A stretch of DNA of 64,000 bases from Natronococcus sp. A-GB7 (GTDB lineage Archaea; Halobacteriota; Halobacteria; Halobacteriales; Natrialbaceae): positions 1 to 64,000 of the forward strand of contig NZ_JARUKV010000026.1 in the NCBI RefSeq assembly GCF_029688865.1, in the 5' to 3' direction. Made by a program: the position numbers and the translations under genes. Positions 34,210 through 47,011 of the stretch are shown here, in pieces; the stretch's first letter is position 1; each line of letters begins with the position of its first letter. The notes beneath the pieces are model-generated. The model ran no database searches. It worked only from the letters and a program-made list of their open reading frames with translations, and was not told the origin of the DNA.

Positions 34210-34920
34210 ATGAAGTACCTCGAGGCTCGTCTCTCCCAGCCCGACGCGATGCTCCACCCGATGCAGCGGTTCATCCGAGAGAGCGAGGCGGTACGATACG
34301 AGGAGCTGCAGGCCTGGAACGTCGACGACCGGGAGCCGACACTCGAGTACGAACTGTTCTACGTCGCGGGAGAGCGCGGACCCTACGAGGACGCACTCGA
34401 GACGGTCGATTCGGTCCGCTGGTTCGACCTGACCCCCGTCGACGACCGTTCGTTCTACTGTTACATCTGTCAGGAGACCCGCGAGGCGGACGTTCGCTGG
34501 CGCCAGGCGTTCGCCGCGCTGGATCTCCTGGTGGTCCCGCCGATCGTCTACGACTCGACGGCGGCCTTCTCGATGACCGTCGTCGGCACCGGCGAGAACC
34601 TACGGGCGATGCTCGAGGACCTGCCGGAGGCGATCGACGTCACCGTGCGGACGATCGGCGAGTACGACCGCCGTCACGCGCCACTCGTCGGCGACCTTAC
34701 AGACCGACAGCTCGAGGCCGTCACAGCCGCGGTCGAGGTCGGATACTTCGAGGTCCCCCGCGAGGGCGGGGTCGACGACGTCGCCGAGGCGCTCGACTGC
34801 GCCTCGAGTACGGCGGCGCGGCTACTACAGAAGGCCCAGGCTCGAGTCATGCAGCAGCTGGTGCAGCGATACGGCCGAGGGCGGCCGACCCGCGACTCAG
34901 CTGACTGTCCTCGACGGTGA
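34210..34920 (+). CDS. HTH_10 (bacterio-opsin activator-type) transcription regulator
   Basis: A 236-residue haloarchaeal regulator. The N-terminal sensor-like domain (1-155) is alpha/beta and contains CYICQE with two cysteines and AAFSMTVVGTGENLRAMLEDLP. The C-terminal HTH_10 domain (about 160-225) reads LTDRQLEAVTAAVEVGYFEVPREGGVDDVAEALDCASSTAARLLQKAQARVMQQLV. Such proteins are specific activators with unknown ligands. It has its own TATA box and is followed 94 nt later by another regulator-like gene. What it controls cannot be told from the context. Confidence 0.87.
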   Translation: MKYLEARLSQPDAMLHPMQRFIRESEAVRYEELQAWNVDDREPTLEYELFYVAGERGPYEDALETVDSVRWFDLTPVDDRSFYCYICQETREADVRWRQAFAALDLLVVPPIVYDSTAAFSMTVVGTGENLRAMLEDLPEAIDVTVRTIGEYDRRHAPLVGDLTDRQLEAVTAAVEVGYFEVPREGGVDDVAEALDCASSTAARLLQKAQARVMQQLVQRYGRGRPTRDSADCPRR

Positions 34921-38338: not shown

Positions 38339-38345
38339 CCTAGTC

Positions 38346-38367
38346 GATTTGGTTCACGGTTCTTGAT
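38346..38367 (+). promoter_or_regulatory. Shared leader element, copy A (propeller gene)
   Basis: GATTTGGTTCACGGTTCTTGAT begins 44 nt before the ATG at 38390. Copy B in front of the subtilase (42659-42680) has the same first 13 bases, GATTTGGTTCACG, at exactly the same distance from its ATG. The similarity continues to the start codon (CTGTTA-N-TCCATG) and into the first codons; by hand, about 50 of 64 positions match. Confidence 0.7.
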
Positions 38368-38389
38368 CGTCTTTCACATCTGTTAGTCC

Positions 38390-40480
38390 ATGCCGCGAGA
38401 CACTCTTTCGGACGACACGCTCACACGAACGACGAGACGGGCGGTACTGACGGCGGCCGCGGGCGCGCTGGGTGTCAGTGCGGTCGGCGTCGCGAGCGGT
38501 CACAAGTATACGACCGACGGTCCCCACGGCGACCAGTTCGACGGAAACCGTGCCGACGCCGCGGCCAACACCGACGTCGTCGGCTACCACAGCCTCGGTG
38601 GAATCGGCTCGGCGTCGATGGCCGGCTCCTCCGACGAGCCACACTACGGCGGCCTCACCGAGTTGCGTCTCCACGACGACATCGCGGTCGTGTCAGTGTT
38701 TTCCTCGCGCGACGAGACGCCGGGTCGAGGGATGGCCGTCCTCGATATCGGGCAGTTCACGCGCGCCGAGAGCCGCGCTGAACTCGAGTCGGCCGAACTC
38801 AACGTCCTCTCCTTTTTCGGCAACCGGAACGACGGCGCCGCCTGTATGGACGTTAAGCTCTCCGACGACGGACAGTACGCGTTCATCTCGAAGCAGCCGT
38901 TCACGGCGCTGTTCGACGAGACCGAACTCGACCTCGAGGACGACGACGCCGACAGCGGCGGCGCCGACGGCGCGGCGCTCGAGGTCGTCGACATCTCGGA
39001 TCCGGGCAACCCCGAGTTCGTCACGCAGTCGTCGCTGTCGGTGTGGACCCTCGGCCCGCACAACGCCTGGTACCACCAGATCGGTGGCGGGGAGTACGTC
39101 TTTACCACTCACGGCGAGGACGGCGTCACCGGTGGCATCAACGTCTTCGAGTTCGACCGTGAGGCGGGGACGCTCGAGTTCGTCAACTGGTGGAACTACT
39201 CGGCCGAACTGGCTCAGCCGGGAACGGAGACCGACACCGACGGCGGCGAGGCCTACGCCCACGACATCGTCGTCCAGGACGACCCCCGGTTCGGAACGCC
39301 CGTCGCCTACCTGGCAAACTGGAACGCCGGCACCCGGCTGCTCGACGTGAGCGATCCCGAAGACATCGAGGAACTCGGCGTCTTCGAACAGGACCGGGCC
39401 CACCACACGGTGCCGGCGCCGACGCTTCAAAACGGGAGTCGCGTCTTCGTCGCCGGCCACGAGAACCCCTCGAGCCACGAGTCCGAGGGCCACGTCCGCA
39501 CCGACGGCGAGAGCGGCCACTACTACCTCGTCGATGCCGATCCGATCGACGACGTCCTCGCGGGCGAACGCGACGAGCCCGTCTACCTGGGCGCGTCCTC
39601 GACGGTGCGCGAAGATGGCGTCGAGCCCGCGAACCGAACCGCGTTCGAGATGTACGAGGACAACGGGCGAACGGAGCTGGACTACTGGATCCTCTTCGAG
39701 TCGGACGAGCAGACGTTCGACGAGACGCCGGGTTTCGAGGCGGAGACCGAGGACGACGACCAGGAGTACGAGGGGTTCGACGACTTCAACCTGAGCGCGC
39801 ACAACCTCGATATCGACGCCGACGGGACCGTCGTCCTCGGGCACTACCACGCCGGAACGCGGTTTCTGGAGATCACCGACGACCTCGGGCTCGAGGAGAC
39901 CGGGTACAGCCGGGTCGGACCCGACATCCCCGAGGACGCCGCCCTCGGCGCTCTCTCGACGGGAACGCCGTTCCACTGGTGTGCGGTCGCTCGCAACGGC
40001 GTGGCCTTCGCCGGCGGAATCAACGAGGGGACGCAGGCGATCGCCCACGACGACGTGACCGTCGGCGAGGACACGCCGATCGATCTCGACGTCGAACGCG
40101 AGGCCGACGCCTCGCTGTTCACGGCGGGCCAGACCAGCCAGGTGCAGATTCACGTCGACAGCGACGAACCGGTCCGGGTCCGCGACCGCATCCCGGGCGA
40201 CTGGGAGGTCGTCGGCGGCGACGTCAGCGTCGACGATATCAGCGACGGGACGCGCACGGTCGTGACCGCCGACGAGACCGTCGAGTCGGGAACGGTGCAG
40301 TACTTCGTCGAGGTGCCGACCGAGCTGATCGACAGCGGTTCGTACACGGTCGGGCCCGTCGAGTACGCCCGTCCCGACCCCGCGGGCGAGTACGGCGGCG
40401 GCGTCAGCGTCAACAACTTCGGCTGGCGGAAGGAAAACGGCGAGACCGTCACGAAGACCGTCGTCGGGCTCGAGACCTAG
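38390..40480 (+). CDS. Secreted LVIVD-type beta-propeller protein with C-terminal Ig-like module
   Basis: A 696-residue TAT-exported protein (TRRAVLTAAAGALGVSAVGVASG). Residues about 50-560 hold repeated blades ending in 'ExxDISDPxxPE' type motifs: LEVVDISDPGNPEFVTQ, TRLLDVSDPEDIEELGVF, LEITDDLGLEETGYS; typical of LVIVD/choice-of-anchor propellers. An acidic insert lies near 175-190. From about 565 the C-terminal module starts (READASLFTAGQTSQVQIHV... VRVRDRIPGDWEVVG), homologous to the end of the subtilase at 42703. No anchor is seen at the C-terminus. Its leader matches that of the subtilase. Role: extracellular binding or scaffolding, function unknown. Confidence 0.82.
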   Translation: MPRDTLSDDTLTRTTRRAVLTAAAGALGVSAVGVASGHKYTTDGPHGDQFDGNRADAAANTDVVGYHSLGGIGSASMAGSSDEPHYGGLTELRLHDDIAVVSVFSSRDETPGRGMAVLDIGQFTRAESRAELESAELNVLSFFGNRNDGAACMDVKLSDDGQYAFISKQPFTALFDETELDLEDDDADSGGADGAALEVVDISDPGNPEFVTQSSLSVWTLGPHNAWYHQIGGGEYVFTTHGEDGVTGGINVFEFDREAGTLEFVNWWNYSAELAQPGTETDTDGGEAYAHDIVVQDDPRFGTPVAYLANWNAGTRLLDVSDPEDIEELGVFEQDRAHHTVPAPTLQNGSRVFVAGHENPSSHESEGHVRTDGESGHYYLVDADPIDDVLAGERDEPVYLGASSTVREDGVEPANRTAFEMYEDNGRTELDYWILFESDEQTFDETPGFEAETEDDDQEYEGFDDFNLSAHNLDIDADGTVVLGHYHAGTRFLEITDDLGLEETGYSRVGPDIPEDAALGALSTGTPFHWCAVARNGVAFAGGINEGTQAIAHDDVTVGEDTPIDLDVEREADASLFTAGQTSQVQIHVDSDEPVRVRDRIPGDWEVVGGDVSVDDISDGTRTVVTADETVESGTVQYFVEVPTELIDSGSYTVGPVEYARPDPAGEYGGGVSVNNFGWRKENGETVTKTVVGLET

Positions 40481-40593
40481 CGAACCAGGTCCAGTCGGGA
40501 ACTGCACGCTGGGGTTGCCGGGCGTCGTTTACCTTTCGAAGGTGAGCTTCTGCAGTATCAGAAATTCGTCGTCGTCGAGCGTACCCGATGCAT

Positions 40594-40622
40594 TCAATAA
40601 TAAACAATCGTAACAGATTTGG
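40594..40622 (+). promoter_or_regulatory. Promoter of the bacterio-opsin-activator-like gene
   Basis: CAATAATAAAC (about 40595-40605) is a clear TATA-like element in an AT-rich patch, 42-52 nt upstream of the GTG at 40647. The heptamer GATTTGG, which opens the shared leader element of both neighbours, occurs at 40616-40622, though the following bases differ. Confidence 0.4.
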
Positions 40623-40646
40623 AGTTTCTAACGTCTGCGTTACAGT

Positions 40647-42656
40647 GTGAAGAGTCCCGATCGGACAGCCGAGCAGCACGTCGGTCGCCGATCTCGTTCC
40701 GGCCACCGAACGATCACTACCGCGCTCGTATCCAGAGACCAGGGGATCAGGGCCCTCGGAGAACAACTCGACGGGGAACGCGGGATAGACGTAACCGTCC
40801 GTTCGGCGCTATCCGAGATCGGGAAACGAGCCGGCCGGATCGACTGTATAGTGTGCGGTCCCGACGTCGTCGATTCGGGTATCGCCGAAAAGAAACGGGG
40901 GGTCCCGGCCAGTGCGTGGATCGTCCTCTGCGAGGACAACGAAACGGCGGAACGGGCGCTCTCGAACGGCGTCGATCGGTGTGTACATTGGGGGGACGAC
41001 CGGGACGCGACGGTAGCACATCTCGCGACTGCGCTCAGAGCCGTGATTAATACTCGGGAGGCGAAGTTCACCCGGGAGGCACTCCAGCGGTTGAACGATC
41101 TGTTTTTCGTCTTCGACCCGGACGGTACCCTGCTCCAGTGGAACCACCGGCTGTCCGAGGTGACCGGGTACGACGACGACGAGATCGCCGCTATGTCGCC
41201 GTCCGATTTCGTCGCCGCCGAGGACATCGCGGCGATCGAGGCGGCGGTCCGACGGACTCTCGAGAGCGGGACAGCCCGGACGGAAGCGGACCTCGTGACT
41301 AGGGACGGCGAGGCGATCCCCTACGAGTTCACGGGCGCGTTGCTCGAAACCGAGGCGGGCGATCGGATCAGCGGAATCGGACGGGACATAACGGATTGCA
41401 AACGCCGACAGCGCGTCCTGGCCGAGCAGGCCGAACAGCTGCGAACGCTGAACCACATCAACGCGGTCATCCGGGAGGTCAATCAGGCGGTCGTGCGGGC
41501 CTCGACCCGCGAGGAGATCGAGGAGGCGGTATGCACCCACCTCGCTAAGAAGGAGCCGTACCGGTTCGCGTGGATCGGGGAGCAGGGGGCCGCAAGCGAT
41601 CGCGTCACGCCGCGGGCGTGGGCGGGGATCGAAAAGGGGTATCTCGAGGACCGCCCCGACGTCGAAGAGAAGCGGGGTGATCACATCACGGCGGCGACCG
41701 CCATCCGGACCGGCGAGATCCAGACCGCACAGCGCATCGCCGAGGACCCCGAGTTCGAACCGTGGCGCGAGGCGGCCCTGGAGCGTGGCTTCCGGTCGGC
41801 GATCGCCGTCCCGCTTCGCTATCGCGAGACGACCTACGGGGTGCTTTGCGTGTACGCGCCGCGTCCGGAGGCCTTCGACGAGGACGAACAGGCCGTGCTC
41901 GCCGATCTCGGCGAAACCGTCGCGTACGCGATCAGTGCGGCCGAACGACGGCGCGCGCTCGTCACCAATTCGGTCATCGAACTCGAGTTTCTGACCCGCG
42001 ATCAGTCGATCGGCTACGTGGCGCTGTCGGCCGATCTCGGCTGTGAACTAACCGTCGAGGGCGTTTCGCCGACCGGCGACGGGGAAGTCGCTGCCTTCGT
42101 CACGATACGCGGTGCGGACTGCGAGGCGGTGCTCTCGACTATCGCCGACGACCCGGACGTCGAGGCGACCGTCGTGGCGGATCACGGCGAGGAGTGTGTC
42201 TTTCGGATGACCGGACCGGAGCCGTCGGTGTCCGGAACTATCGCCGATTACGGGGGCGTCGTCCGGGAGGCGGACGCCGACGACGGCGAGGGGCGGTTCG
42301 TCGTCGAACTCCCTTACGACGCCGACATCCGTGCGGTCGTCGGCGGCCTCGAGAAGTACTACGACCGAACCGAACTCGTCGCCCAGCGCGAGCGCGAGCG
42401 GACCGGGCCCTCGGATGCGGTGGTCAGGGAGGCGTTCGACGACGCGCTGACCGATCGCCAGCGGGAGGTGTTGCGGGCCGCGTATCTCTCCGGCTTTTTC
42501 GACTGGCCACGCGGGGCAAACAGCGGCGAGGTCGCCGAGGTCCTCGGGATCACGGAGCCGACGTTCCACGAACACCTCCGGACGTGCCAGCGCAAACTCG
42601 TTAGCGCGTACTTCGATCACCAGCCGCCGGTCGACCTGGCCGAACTGATAGCCTAG
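40647..42656 (+). CDS. Bacterio-opsin activator-like sensor/regulator (PAS, GAF, HTH_10)
   Basis: A 669-residue cytoplasmic regulator. In order: a receiver-like alpha/beta domain (about 23-135: TTALVSRDQGIRALGEQL, DCIVCGPDVVDSG), a PAS domain (about 140-250: FFVFDPDGTLLQWNHRLSEVTGYDDDEIAAM), a GAF domain (about 265-430), the bacterio-opsin-activator linker domain (about 435-590) and HTH_10 (about 600-655: ALTDRQREVLRAAYLSGFFDWPRGANSGEVAEVLGITEPTFHEHLR). No transmembrane segment and no kinase. The GTG start is the first after a stop and follows a TATA box. Lying between two genes with a common leader, it is the likely regulator of both; that is inference. Confidence 0.88.
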   Translation: MKSPDRTAEQHVGRRSRSGHRTITTALVSRDQGIRALGEQLDGERGIDVTVRSALSEIGKRAGRIDCIVCGPDVVDSGIAEKKRGVPASAWIVLCEDNETAERALSNGVDRCVHWGDDRDATVAHLATALRAVINTREAKFTREALQRLNDLFFVFDPDGTLLQWNHRLSEVTGYDDDEIAAMSPSDFVAAEDIAAIEAAVRRTLESGTARTEADLVTRDGEAIPYEFTGALLETEAGDRISGIGRDITDCKRRQRVLAEQAEQLRTLNHINAVIREVNQAVVRASTREEIEEAVCTHLAKKEPYRFAWIGEQGAASDRVTPRAWAGIEKGYLEDRPDVEEKRGDHITAATAIRTGEIQTAQRIAEDPEFEPWREAALERGFRSAIAVPLRYRETTYGVLCVYAPRPEAFDEDEQAVLADLGETVAYAISAAERRRALVTNSVIELEFLTRDQSIGYVALSADLGCELTVEGVSPTGDGEVAAFVTIRGADCEAVLSTIADDPDVEATVVADHGEECVFRMTGPEPSVSGTIADYGGVVREADADDGEGRFVVELPYDADIRAVVGGLEKYYDRTELVAQRERERTGPSDAVVREAFDDALTDRQREVLRAAYLSGFFDWPRGANSGEVAEVLGITEPTFHEHLRTCQRKLVSAYFDHQPPVDLAELIA

Positions 42657-42658
42657 AG

Positions 42659-42680
42659 GATTTGGTTCACGATTCTTTAT
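42659..42680 (+). promoter_or_regulatory. Shared leader element, copy B (subtilase gene)
   Basis: GATTTGGTTCACGATTCTTTAT starts two nt after the stop codon of the regulator gene and 44 nt before the subtilase ATG, exactly as copy A precedes the propeller gene. TTCTTTATT in it can serve as a TATA-like box. Confidence 0.7.
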
Positions 42681-42702
42681 TGTAATCTCCCTCTGTTACT
42701 CC

Positions 42703-45414
42703 ATGTCGCAAGACAACTCTGAAAATATAACAACCACGACGCGGCGTAAATTCGTCGCGGGAACCAGCGCGCTCGTCGGGGCCGGCCTGCTCGGGGCCGG
42801 TGCCGGCGTCTCCACCGTCGGAGCCAGCGAGGACGTCGACACGGCGTTCGCGAACGTACGGGTACGCGAGGCCCTCCACGCCTGGAACCGCGGGTATCGC
42901 GGGCGAGCCGACCGAACGCTTGCACTGGCCGACAGCGGAACCGACTCGCGCCACCCCGATCTCGGTCCCTGGAGCGGGGCGACGGTCTCGACGGAGGACG
43001 GGTTCGAGATCGACGGCAACCCGTTCGCCAACACCGGCGGGAGTACCACCTCGAACACGACGAAACTCGTCGCCTGGCACAACGACTTCGACCGATACGG
43101 CGAGTACTCCCGGCCGCGGGACTCCAACGGCCACGGGACCCACGTCGCCTCGATCATGGCCGGTACCGGGCGAGCGAGCGGGTTCGACGGCAGCCGTTAC
43201 CAGGAGGACGAACCCCGGACGACGCTCGTCCTCGGCGACACCCTCTCCTACGAGGTCGACGCCGAGGCTCACAGCGGCGTCTTCGCCAGCGTCTACGGTG
43301 AACTCGTCGAGATCGCGATCGAAGGTCCCGACGGCGAGGAGATCACGACCTCCAGTGACCTCGTCGGCACGAGCCTCGAAGAGAACATCGTCGCCCAGAC
43401 GCCGACGGTCCACGACGACGGCGAGGAGACCTACACGGTCCACGTCCGCGCCCAGGAGGGCGAACTCGTCTCGTCGGGCACCGTCGAGCGCGTCGCCGTC
43501 GGGGCGTTCGTCGATCCGACCGACACCGTCGGCGACCGGACCGACGACGGCGACCGCTCGATGCACGCGGGCATCGCGCCCGACGCGGGGATCGTCTCGC
43601 TGTCGGGACTCGGCGACCCGACCCTCGAGATGGGCGACTACGCAGAAGAGTTCGCCGAGGAACTCAACGTCCGCGCGGTGAACATGTCCTGGGGGTACGT
43701 CGGCGGGATCCCCCTCGGCGCGGCCGGTGGACGCCTCGACGACGTCCCCGAGGCGATCGGGAACCTGGCCGACGCGGGGATCCTCTCGGTCGCGGCAGCG
43801 GGCAACGACGCCACCCCGGCTTCCGGTAACGCCGCACCGGCAGTCGTCCGCGAGGCGATCTCGGTCGTCGCGACCGGCGCCCGCGACGGGATCTCAGCGT
43901 ACTCCTCGGGGGGGATCGCCGGCATCGACGAACACGACGAGCCGTTCATGAAACCCGACGTCACCGCCCCCGGCGGGACGCTCAACGTCCCCGATATCGC
44001 TGCACTGCAGGGCGAGCCCGAGGAGGAGGTCACTGAAGCGGAACCGGACGACGCCGCGGCGAGCGCGGAGCTCGAACCGGTCGCTGAACTCGACGAGGTC
44101 GACGAGAGCGACCTCGAGCCGAAGACCGCCTTCGACGACGCGATCACCGGTCCCGTCGACTACGAGGTCGACCTCGCCGACTCCGTTCTCGACACCCTGG
44201 GAGACGTCAGCCTCGACACGTCGCTGGAGTCGCCGCTGGCCGGCGCGAACACCGAGGGCGACGGGAGCGACGGCGTCCGTGACTACACGGGGAAGGCCGG
44301 AACGTCGATGGCCGCACCGTCGGTGGCCGGTATCTCCGGCGTCGTCGCGGAAGCGATGGAGTTCGATGCGCCGGAAGCGATCGCGCTCGACGAGCCGGCC
44401 GACGCCGACCGGGACGACGTCTTCCGGCTGAAGACCACGCTGCTCGCAACCGCAAGCGAGACTGCGCTGACGGCCGCACCGTATCACCGCGCGAAGGCAC
44501 CCCGGTACACCCACGGTGGCCGCGACCAGTTCGAGGGCTACGGCCGCGCGAACGTCGGTCCCGCGATCGACGCCGTGACCCGGGACCTGACCGACGACGC
44601 CGTCTCCGGGACGGTCGGCCTCGCAGTCCCCGAGGACGAGCGGGCGATCGCGGGCCACGTCCGCGTGAGCGATCCCGGCGAGATCGACGCCGAGGTCGCC
44701 TTCAGCCACTACAGCGGCGGCAACGCGAGCGCGACCAAGGGCGATCCCCACGTCGACCTCTTCTGCTACGACGCCCAGAACCCCGACGAGCAGACCGGCG
44801 ACCCGACGATTGTCGACAGCGACGCCGGCATCGAGGGCGACGCCGCGGTCTCGACGACGGTCTCGCCGGACGACCTCGAGGACAACGGCGGCGAGCGAGT
44901 GTTCTACGTCGTCGCGAAGCTGGTGAACGTCCCCGGACTGGTCAACGGCTTCGACTGCCGAGCCCACCTCGACCTCGAGACCGCGTTCGACGAAGCGGGG
45001 CTGCTCGTCGAGGGCGAGCGCGAGGACGACGCCTCCGTCTTCACGGGCGGTCAGACCAACCGCACCGAACTCGACGTGACGGTTCGCAATCCCGACGACG
45101 AGGACGTCGTCGTCCGCGACACCGTCCCCGAGGACTGGGACGTCGACGAGGACCACGGCGACGTCGAGGCGACGACGCCCGCCTTCGGCGGCGGCACCCA
45201 CGTCTACGTCGGCGTCGACGATCCCCAGGACGCCTACGAGGGGCTGACCCACTTCGCCGAGGCGCCCGACGACGTCGAGGACTCCGATCGTTACACCTTC
45301 GGTCCAATCGCAGTGACGACCGACACCGACGACGACGGAACGCTCACCGACCGCGAGTGGACCGCGATCAGCGGCACCGACCGGACGGTCACCGTCGCCG
45401 CGGAAGAGACGTAG
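42703..45414 (+). CDS. Secreted subtilisin-like serine protease with inserts and C-terminal Ig-like module
   Basis: A 903-residue TAT-exported S8 protease (TTRRKFVAGTSALVGAGLLGAGAG). Triad: D77 in LALADSGTD, H144 in SNGHGTHVASIMAG and S535 in GTSMAAPSVAGISG; oxyanion Asn in AAAGNDATP. Between the His helix and GIAPDAGIVSL is an insert of about 125 residues, beta-rich (about 158-285). A second insert, very acidic (EEEVTEAEPDDAAAS...), lies just before the serine (about 435-520). After the catalytic domain come a beta domain (about 600-770) and the C-terminal module (about 775-900) shared with the propeller protein. It should act outside the cell. Substrate unknown. Confidence 0.88.
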   Translation: MSQDNSENITTTTRRKFVAGTSALVGAGLLGAGAGVSTVGASEDVDTAFANVRVREALHAWNRGYRGRADRTLALADSGTDSRHPDLGPWSGATVSTEDGFEIDGNPFANTGGSTTSNTTKLVAWHNDFDRYGEYSRPRDSNGHGTHVASIMAGTGRASGFDGSRYQEDEPRTTLVLGDTLSYEVDAEAHSGVFASVYGELVEIAIEGPDGEEITTSSDLVGTSLEENIVAQTPTVHDDGEETYTVHVRAQEGELVSSGTVERVAVGAFVDPTDTVGDRTDDGDRSMHAGIAPDAGIVSLSGLGDPTLEMGDYAEEFAEELNVRAVNMSWGYVGGIPLGAAGGRLDDVPEAIGNLADAGILSVAAAGNDATPASGNAAPAVVREAISVVATGARDGISAYSSGGIAGIDEHDEPFMKPDVTAPGGTLNVPDIAALQGEPEEEVTEAEPDDAAASAELEPVAELDEVDESDLEPKTAFDDAITGPVDYEVDLADSVLDTLGDVSLDTSLESPLAGANTEGDGSDGVRDYTGKAGTSMAAPSVAGISGVVAEAMEFDAPEAIALDEPADADRDDVFRLKTTLLATASETALTAAPYHRAKAPRYTHGGRDQFEGYGRANVGPAIDAVTRDLTDDAVSGTVGLAVPEDERAIAGHVRVSDPGEIDAEVAFSHYSGGNASATKGDPHVDLFCYDAQNPDEQTGDPTIVDSDAGIEGDAAVSTTVSPDDLEDNGGERVFYVVAKLVNVPGLVNGFDCRAHLDLETAFDEAGLLVEGEREDDASVFTGGQTNRTELDVTVRNPDDEDVVVRDTVPEDWDVDEDHGDVEATTPAFGGGTHVYVGVDDPQDAYEGLTHFAEAPDDVEDSDRYTFGPIAVTTDTDDDGTLTDREWTAISGTDRTVTVAAEET

Positions 45415-45521
45415 CTGACCAACACGGCAGTTCGCCCGTTTTCGGGCCGCCGTCGAGACTGCGACTGAAGCGAGACCCATCCGCGACTGACGACGCTCCG
45501 GGCCGACACGAGAGACCATCT

Positions 45522-47011
45522 ATGACCACGAACTCGACCACCGAGACGCGAACTGACGCAGTCAGTGCATCGACCCGCAGACGATTCGTCGCCGGCCTCG
45601 GCGCCGCCGGCCTCGCGACGACGCTTCCCTTCGCCGGGAGCGCGGCAGCCGACGAGACGATCGTCGACGAGACGCTCGACACCGCGAGCGACGCTCTCCA
45701 GGAGACCCTCGTCGTCTTCGAGGAGACCGACCAGGTCGACCGCCTCGCGGAGCTGGACCTCGCGCTGGGGTATCACTCCTTCGCGGTCCTCCCGGTCGGC
45801 TACACCGAACTCACCGGCGAGCAGCTGCTCGAGATCTCCGCCTGGGACGATGTCAGGTACGTCTCGGCGAACCGCGACCTCGAGTACTTCAACGACGACA
45901 GCCGCGAGACGACCGGCGCCGATCGGGTCCAGGACGGCGAGGACCTCGAGACGGCCTACACCGGCAAGAACGTCCACACCGCGGTCATCGACACCGGCGT
46001 CGACGGCGCCCACCCCGACCTCGAGGGGAACCTCGCGGCCAACTGGCAGTGGGTCGGTGATCCGCTCGAGCAGGACGTCCTCTGGGAGGACCTCGGCCCG
46101 TGAACACCGACGACAACGGGCACGGGACCCACTGCTGTGGCACCGTCGGCGGCGACGGCACCGAGAGCGACGGCGAGTACAAGGGGATCGCTCCCGACGC
46201 GACGCTGACCTCCTACTCAGCGAACCTCTCGCTGACGCTCGTCACGATCGTCGCGGCCTATGACCACATGATCGAACGCAAGCAGTCGGGCGAGACCGAC
46301 ATCCAGGTCGTCTCGAACTCGTACGGGCTGGCCGAGGACGAGGACTACGACCCGAACGATCCGGGCAACGTTGCCACCTGGCACGCGTTCGAAGCCGACA
46401 TCCTGCCCGTGTTCGCCGCCGGCAACGACGGCCCCGAGACGAACACGCTCAACTTCTACACCCGCGGCCCCCACGTCCTTGGCGTGGCGGCGACGAACGC
46501 CGACCAGACGGTGACAGACTTCTCCTCGCGCGGGCGCTCGCCGGGGTACGACGGCGTGACCAACTACGACCGCGAGGCAGCCTTCGAGAACCACCGGGCG
46601 TTCTACTCGGGCGACGACCCCGACGGCCCGCTGGGATTTTATCGCAACGGTGTCGCCGCGAAGGGCGGAAGCGTGATGAGCACGCTCAACCCCACCCACG
46701 CGCTGCAGGCGACCGAAACCGACGAGGAGGTCTTCTACGGCCGCCTCTCGGGGACGAGCATGGCCTGTCCCGGCGTCGCCGGCTGTGCGACCCTGGTCGT
46801 CGACGCCTACTACGAGACCCACGGCGAGTACCCCGACGCGATCGACGTGCTGAACACGCTCGAGGCGACGGCCGTCGAGAACGTCCACGACGACTACACC
46901 GCGGAATCGGTCGGCGCCGGGTTCGCCGACGTCTACGCCGCGGTCGAACGCGCCGAGGCGGACGACCTCGCCGACTTCGGCGAGGCCACGATCGCACCCG
47001 GCGGCGAGTAG
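45522..47011 (+). pseudogene. Secreted subtilisin-like protease, split by a frameshift
   Basis: Two reading frames make one S8 protease of about 496 residues. Part 1 (45522-46103, 193 residues) has a TAT signal (TRRRFVAGLGAAGLATTLPFAGS), a propeptide-like stretch (FAVLPVGYTELTGEQLLEISAWDDVRYVSANRDLEYF) and the Asp motif AVIDTGVDGAHPDL, then stops at TGA after WEDLGP. Part 2 (46100-47011, 303 residues, GTG) continues at once with NTDDNGHGTHCCGTVGG (His), VFAAGNDGPE (Asn) and GTSMACPGVAGC (Ser). One missing base near 46100 explains it. The stop and GTG overlap as GTGA, so coupled translation of two pieces is conceivable. It lacks the C-terminal module of its neighbour. Confidence 0.85.
46097..46103 (+). 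other. Frameshift site in the second subtilase
   Basis: The reading frame ends at TGA (46101-46103), while the -1 frame opens with GTG (46100-46102). Restoring one G in CCCGTG would give uninterrupted LGPVNTDDNGHGTH. There is no long homopolymer or clear slippery heptamer, so a mutation or a sequencing error is likelier than programmed frameshifting. Confidence 0.7.

Follow-up and report, generated by a model that had tools for sequence, protein, structure and literature searches.

To our knowledge the only target sites known for Bat-type regulators, of which haloarchaea have many, are those of the bop regulon, where saturation mutagenesis at bop in 1999 reportedly defined the UAS as ACC-N7-TTNGG. 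Bat itself, the bacterio-opsin activator, has the architecture PAS-GAF-BAT-HTH_10 (PMC3184054), and in the purple membrane regulon of Halobacterium the UAS is found ahead of bop and also close to brp and crtB1 (PMC1447603, PMC3184054). With secreted proteases, the promoter of halolysin SptA of Natrinema sp. J7-2 has semi-palindromes upstream of its TATA box, GAAAT-N7-ATTTC, TTCTT-N10-AAGAA and GAA-N4-TTC, that control this secreted subtilase, and in 2018 the regulators of SptA and of haloarchaeal exoproteases were described as undetermined (PMC6085418). The locus considered here has two genes with a shared leader on either side of a Bat-type regulator gene. With a probability of roughly two in three, that leader is a promoter with an activator site for the neighbouring regulator, which would co-activate both flanking genes and repress its own, the first of the flanking genes having been relocated to its present position.

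The window, the whole stretch of DNA analysed from Natronococcus, a haloarchaeon, is 64 kb long, and three genes on one strand together fill its positions 38390-45414. The first (38390-40480, + strand) is an ORF for a Tat-type secreted protein that is probably a beta-propeller of the LVIVD type; its LVIVD-repeat match (E=7e-4) is under the Pfam cut-off, and so the label ‘propeller’ is fair but weakly supported. An AlphaFold model of this protein has a mean pLDDT of 39.9 and was set aside as evidence. Named close relatives of the gene are in Natronococcus amylolyticus, Natronococcus sp. A-GB1, N. pandeyae and two metagenome assemblies. The third gene (42703-45414, + strand) encodes a Tat-type secreted subtilase of 903 amino acids (Peptidase_S8, 9e-29). 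A preliminary description of this DNA had held that the flanking proteins differ in their main domains and have a C-terminal module in common, and both points stand: the module, of about 115 residues (nucleotides 40016-40360 and 44935-45309), is 35% identical over 125 amino acids (E=2e-10), and its subtilase copy is without a Pfam match. The module pattern, DASxFTxGQT...VxDxxPxDW, is also seen in an M14 peptidase (L138:12698-15892), the module of which matches that of the subtilase at 68% over 134 amino acids. The middle gene (40647-42656, + strand, GTG start), already taken to encode a DNA-binding regulator, specifies 669 amino acids in which PAS, GAF, BAT and a C-terminal HTH_10 domain are all above the Pfam cut-offs (BAT 1.6e-42, HTH_10 2.6e-20, GAF_2 6e-17, PAS_4 2e-13), and so it is of the Bat type. 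Two further genes nearby deserve mention. A second subtilase gene at 45522-47011, a single open frame in relatives such as L043, has a frameshift near 46100 that divides it into ORFs 45357-46103 and 46100-47011, and is without a copy of the leader element. At 34210-34920, 3.4 kb upstream of the cluster, there is a second HTH_10 regulator with an HVO_0513-type N-terminal domain, which is kept near the subtilase in G007.

The propeller leader (38339-38389, + strand) consists of a dyad, GATTTGGTTCACG and a TATA-like TTGATC (38363-38368), and runs to the ATG; in the subtilase leader (42652-42702, + strand) the TATA-like hexamer is TTTATT (42676-42681), at -27 from the ATG. Extended by 13 coding nucleotides, the two 51-nt leaders align ungapped (38339-38402 with 42652-42715) and are identical at exactly 50 of 64 positions, the number that had been estimated by hand. 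Chance likeness is ruled out, as the next-best leader matches on both strands of the window reach 32/64 and 31/64 (mean about 15.5, SD about 3.3). GATTTGGTTCACG begins, as had been noted, 44 nt before the ATG in both (38346 and 42659), and these are its only exact copies in the genome of 4,877,762 bases. Three copies with one mismatch are found elsewhere in the genome; with two of these inside long open frames, and the extended form restricted to two sites per genome, a large regulon under GATTTGGTTCACG is ruled out. The occurrence of GATTTGG at 40616, upstream of the regulator gene, is also as described earlier, and of its four occurrences on both strands of the 64 kb, three lie upstream of the genes for propeller, regulator and subtilase.

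An imperfect dyad, CCTAR-N4-TTTGG, opens the leader element; it begins about 51 nt before the ATG and lies just ahead of the TATA position. A bare dyad scan of the window and the compared neighbourhoods was complemented by a PWM scan within the window and the compared loci. CCTAA-N(3-6)-TT[AT]GG with at most one mismatch is present at three places in the 64 kb (38339, 40609 and 42652), all with a spacer of 4 and preceding the propeller, regulator and subtilase genes respectively, where a Markov model leads one to expect about 1.5 per 64 kb anywhere. All three putative regulator sites are on the + strand. Site 1, CCTAGTCGATTTGG (38339-38352), is the best PWM match in the window, and site 3, CCTAGAGGATTTGG (42652-42665), overlaps the stop codon of the regulator (42654-42656). 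Site 2, CGTAACAGATTTGG (40609-40622), is 25-38 nt before the regulator GTG and follows an AT-rich, TATA-like stretch (40593-40608); it ranks third in the matrix scan both in the 64 kb and in G005, and is conserved in G006 and G005 and degenerate in G001. In G006 one more dyad, CCTAATGGACTAGG (L043:7716-7729), sits at the propeller stop codon, about 160 nt ahead of the regulator; the other three cluster genomes have no match to it when one mismatch is allowed.

The propeller-regulator-subtilase cluster is present in four Natronococcus genomes, that of the window (G000), G001, G005 and G006, and with few exceptions all eight leaders read NCCTARNSGATTTGGTTCACGRTTCTTKAT..TCTGTTASTCCATG. CCTA, TTTGG and the ACG that follows are fixed in all eight, as is the arrangement CC-N7-TTTGG, with the fifth base A in five and G in three. 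Upstream of CCTA the propeller-side sequence has no conservation between the four species, and against this background the element is visible as a footprint. The extended element (a 24-mer, at most three mismatches) has exactly two matches in each of the four genomes, always the propeller and subtilase promoters; two congeners without the regulator have none, and a reversed control pattern had zero matches. The element is thus present at all linked orthologous loci rather than scattered through the genome, and its extended form is confined to neighbours of the regulator. Among the genomes tested, element and full-length regulator are found in the same four.

In genomes without the regulator the propeller and subtilase orthologs are unlinked, and both carry TTGGAYNNNTTTGTCANAA or a close variant of it about 50-60 nt before the ATG. 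This element is like that of the Natronococcus leaders in that the same pair of orthologous genes shares it, about as far from the ATG, but it differs in sequence, its targets are mostly unlinked, and it is absent from the four-genome clade at one mismatch: TTGGATNNNTTTGTCANAA has 47 one-mismatch matches in 125 genomes, against 11 for a reversed control, and zero in the clade. Other genes behind TTGGAYNNNTTTGTCANAA include those for the M14 peptidase that also has the C-terminal module, for a CocE-like hydrolase (assigned by eye), for a GDPD-family enzyme and, in several genera, for a protein of about 390 amino acids with a PGF-CTERM motif. Since most of the products look secreted, TTGGAYNNNTTTGTCANAA probably marks a family-wide regulon of secreted proteins. 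It is seen ahead of many secreted-protein genes across the family (L073-L102, L168-L197 and the neighbourhoods L128-L138). One secreted family of about 390-460 amino acids, from several genera (L171-L172, L174-L178, L183-L184, L186-L187, L192-L193, L197), has its ATG about 55 nt after the start of the element, and its tested member has the PGF-CTERM motif and no other significant domain. That TTGGAYNNNTTTGTCANAA is a universal target of the same regulator is unsupported, as its carriers are without a full-length relative of the regulator except in G009 and G014.

These two, at 44% and 43% identity respectively, have the next-closest near-full-length relatives of the regulator, and the only ones outside the clade, among 125 genomes of the family. 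In both the regulator gene is directly upstream of an orthologous subtilase that is about 50% identical over its parts and has the same C-terminal module, a propeller homolog is a few kb away, and TTGGAYNNNTTTGTCANAA sits between regulator and subtilase. In both, too, a perfect dyad, CCTAA-N5-TTAGG, the sole such site in each 19.5-kb stretch, overlaps the regulator stop codon, just as site 3 does in the window, and its spacers differ between the species (CTTGA and TCAGG). Against a shared mechanism are the distance of this dyad from the subtilase ATG, about 140-150 nt and away from the TATA box, its spacer of 5 rather than the 4 of the four-genome clade, and the presence of TTGGAYNNNTTTGTCANAA at the subtilase of both genomes.

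The presence of TTGGAYNNNTTTGTCANAA at both genes in regulator-less relatives means that some other factor can co-regulate propeller and subtilase. The duplicated promoter could accordingly be read by another factor here also, a BAT/HTH_10 paralog or a special TBP/TFB pair, with the neighbouring regulator controlling something else, and the 13 matches to the regulator in this genome, which amount to a dozen or so BAT/HTH_10 paralogs, provide candidates. This is unlikely, though it deserves to be taken seriously: the co-occurrence of element and full-length regulator, the third dyad copy before the regulator gene itself and the retention of a related dyad at the same junction by the distant regulators of G009 and G014 all argue for the neighbouring regulator.

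The propeller leaders of the four species agree with each other at 51-59 of 64 positions and the subtilase leaders at 54-61, whereas the two leaders within one genome agree at 49-51, mostly below the same-gene values across species. As the leaders group by gene rather than by genome, the duplication preceded the divergence of the four species, and a recent duplication or gene conversion is ruled out. The preliminary description had proposed either shared regulation or a leader duplication of recent date; both ideas gain support, and it is ‘recent’ that was wrong. As to direction, in G005 the propeller upstream sequence, GCCGAACTGGTGA-CCTAA, and the regulator 3′ end, GCCGAACTGCTGG-CCTAA, are identical at 11 of 13 positions in register (P about 2e-4), whereas G006 shows a borderline likeness and G000 and G001 show none. 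The copying may thus have run from the regulator-subtilase junction to the front of the propeller gene, the trace being clear in one genome of the four, a metagenome assembly, and the propeller leader is probably an old duplicate of that junction. In G004, G007 and G008 the subtilase is preceded, as in the window, by the thrS region and the 37708 homolog, with neither propeller nor regulator between, and the propeller is at another locus; the propeller gene has therefore moved.

Plain duplication of promoter and first codons, the likeness being a relic of common descent with no regulatory role, would accord with the relic of the regulator 3′ end kept in G005 and with a match that runs to the start codon (TCTGTTASTCCATG) and into the first codons, where a binding role is not obvious. 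Given the age of the duplication it is quite improbable, as CCTA, TTTGG and the following ACG have nevertheless stayed invariant in every leader while propeller-side similarity upstream of CCTA was lost. That the conserved leader works in the mRNA, as a translation or stability element, would suit conservation extending to the ATG and first codons, but is scarcely credible when the TATA-like hexamer at -27 puts the predicted transcription start at or next to the ATG, so that most of the element would stay untranscribed; near-leaderless transcripts are common in haloarchaea.

On the preferred reading, activation by the neighbouring regulator, the Bat-type protein would bind CCTAR-N4-TTTGG, probably as a dimer, and from its position directly upstream of the TATA position would help TBP and TFB to assemble, so co-activating the genes of both secreted proteins, the propeller-like one and the subtilase. 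Its PAS and GAF domains may sense the signal, for which growth phase or nitrogen supply are possible candidates by analogy with halolysin SptA. Archaeal regulators bound between TATA and transcription start usually repress, and the location of the weaker copy at the regulator gene, past the TATA-like stretch but short of the predicted start, makes negative autoregulation plausible. In the ancestor of the four Natronococcus species the propeller gene would have come to lie beside the regulator-subtilase pair and gained a copy of their junction as its promoter, a direction for which the evidence comes mainly from one genome. With a dyad core that resembles the regulator's site, the three genes are probably a small self-contained switch.

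A broader proposal, of cis-regulatory takeover, is tentative, its chances being put at a little under even. Propeller and subtilase, elsewhere unlinked under TTGGAYNNNTTTGTCANAA, would have been joined beside a dedicated Bat-type regulator, both would have lost TTGGAYNNNTTTGTCANAA, and promoter copying would have given both the new element, such that co-regulation outlived a full swap of the site and probably of the regulator. The locus may thus illustrate the persistence of co-regulation through exchange of a regulatory site. It is also a candidate source of a regulator of haloarchaeal exoproteases, and since about 7 kb hold the regulator, three copies of its putative site and two target genes, it could be moved to a laboratory haloarchaeon.

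Comparison with bop comes down to six fixed bases. In three bop orthologs (L117-L119) the sequences concerned, positioned -53 to -61 relative to the start, are CCATACTGATTGGG, CCGTACTGTTTGGG and CCGAACTGTTTGGG, and all fit CCNNA-N4-TTNGG. The clade sites fit it too, save that three of the eight have G as their fifth base; an exact match is missing in six of the nine bop orthologs checked, the more distant ones. By sequence and by distance, about 50-60 nt before the start codon, the Natronococcus sites are thus of the bop UAS type. The regulator is only 28% identical to the Bat-like protein beside bop and so is not an ortholog of Bat proper, and this genome has no bop relative at E<=1e-50. As with bop and Bat in Halobacterium, a regulator of the PAS-GAF-BAT-HTH_10 type is encoded next to its presumptive targets, and a CC...TTNGG dyad is just upstream of the TATA position at a like distance from the start codon. 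In contrast to bop-Bat, the presumptive target genes encode a protease and a propeller-like secreted protein instead of retinal proteins, the dyad is followed by an extra TTCACG, and the two promoters are duplicates of each other. With SptA the locus has in common a secreted haloarchaeal subtilase and a semi-palindrome upstream of the TATA position, but CCTAR-N4-TTTGG is different from all the SptA elements, and by inspection GAAAT-N7-ATTTC is absent from both leaders. Judged by its sequences, the locus appears to be a new variant of Bat/UAS control in which two secreted proteins are under one self-contained switch that arose by promoter duplication and replaced an older shared element.
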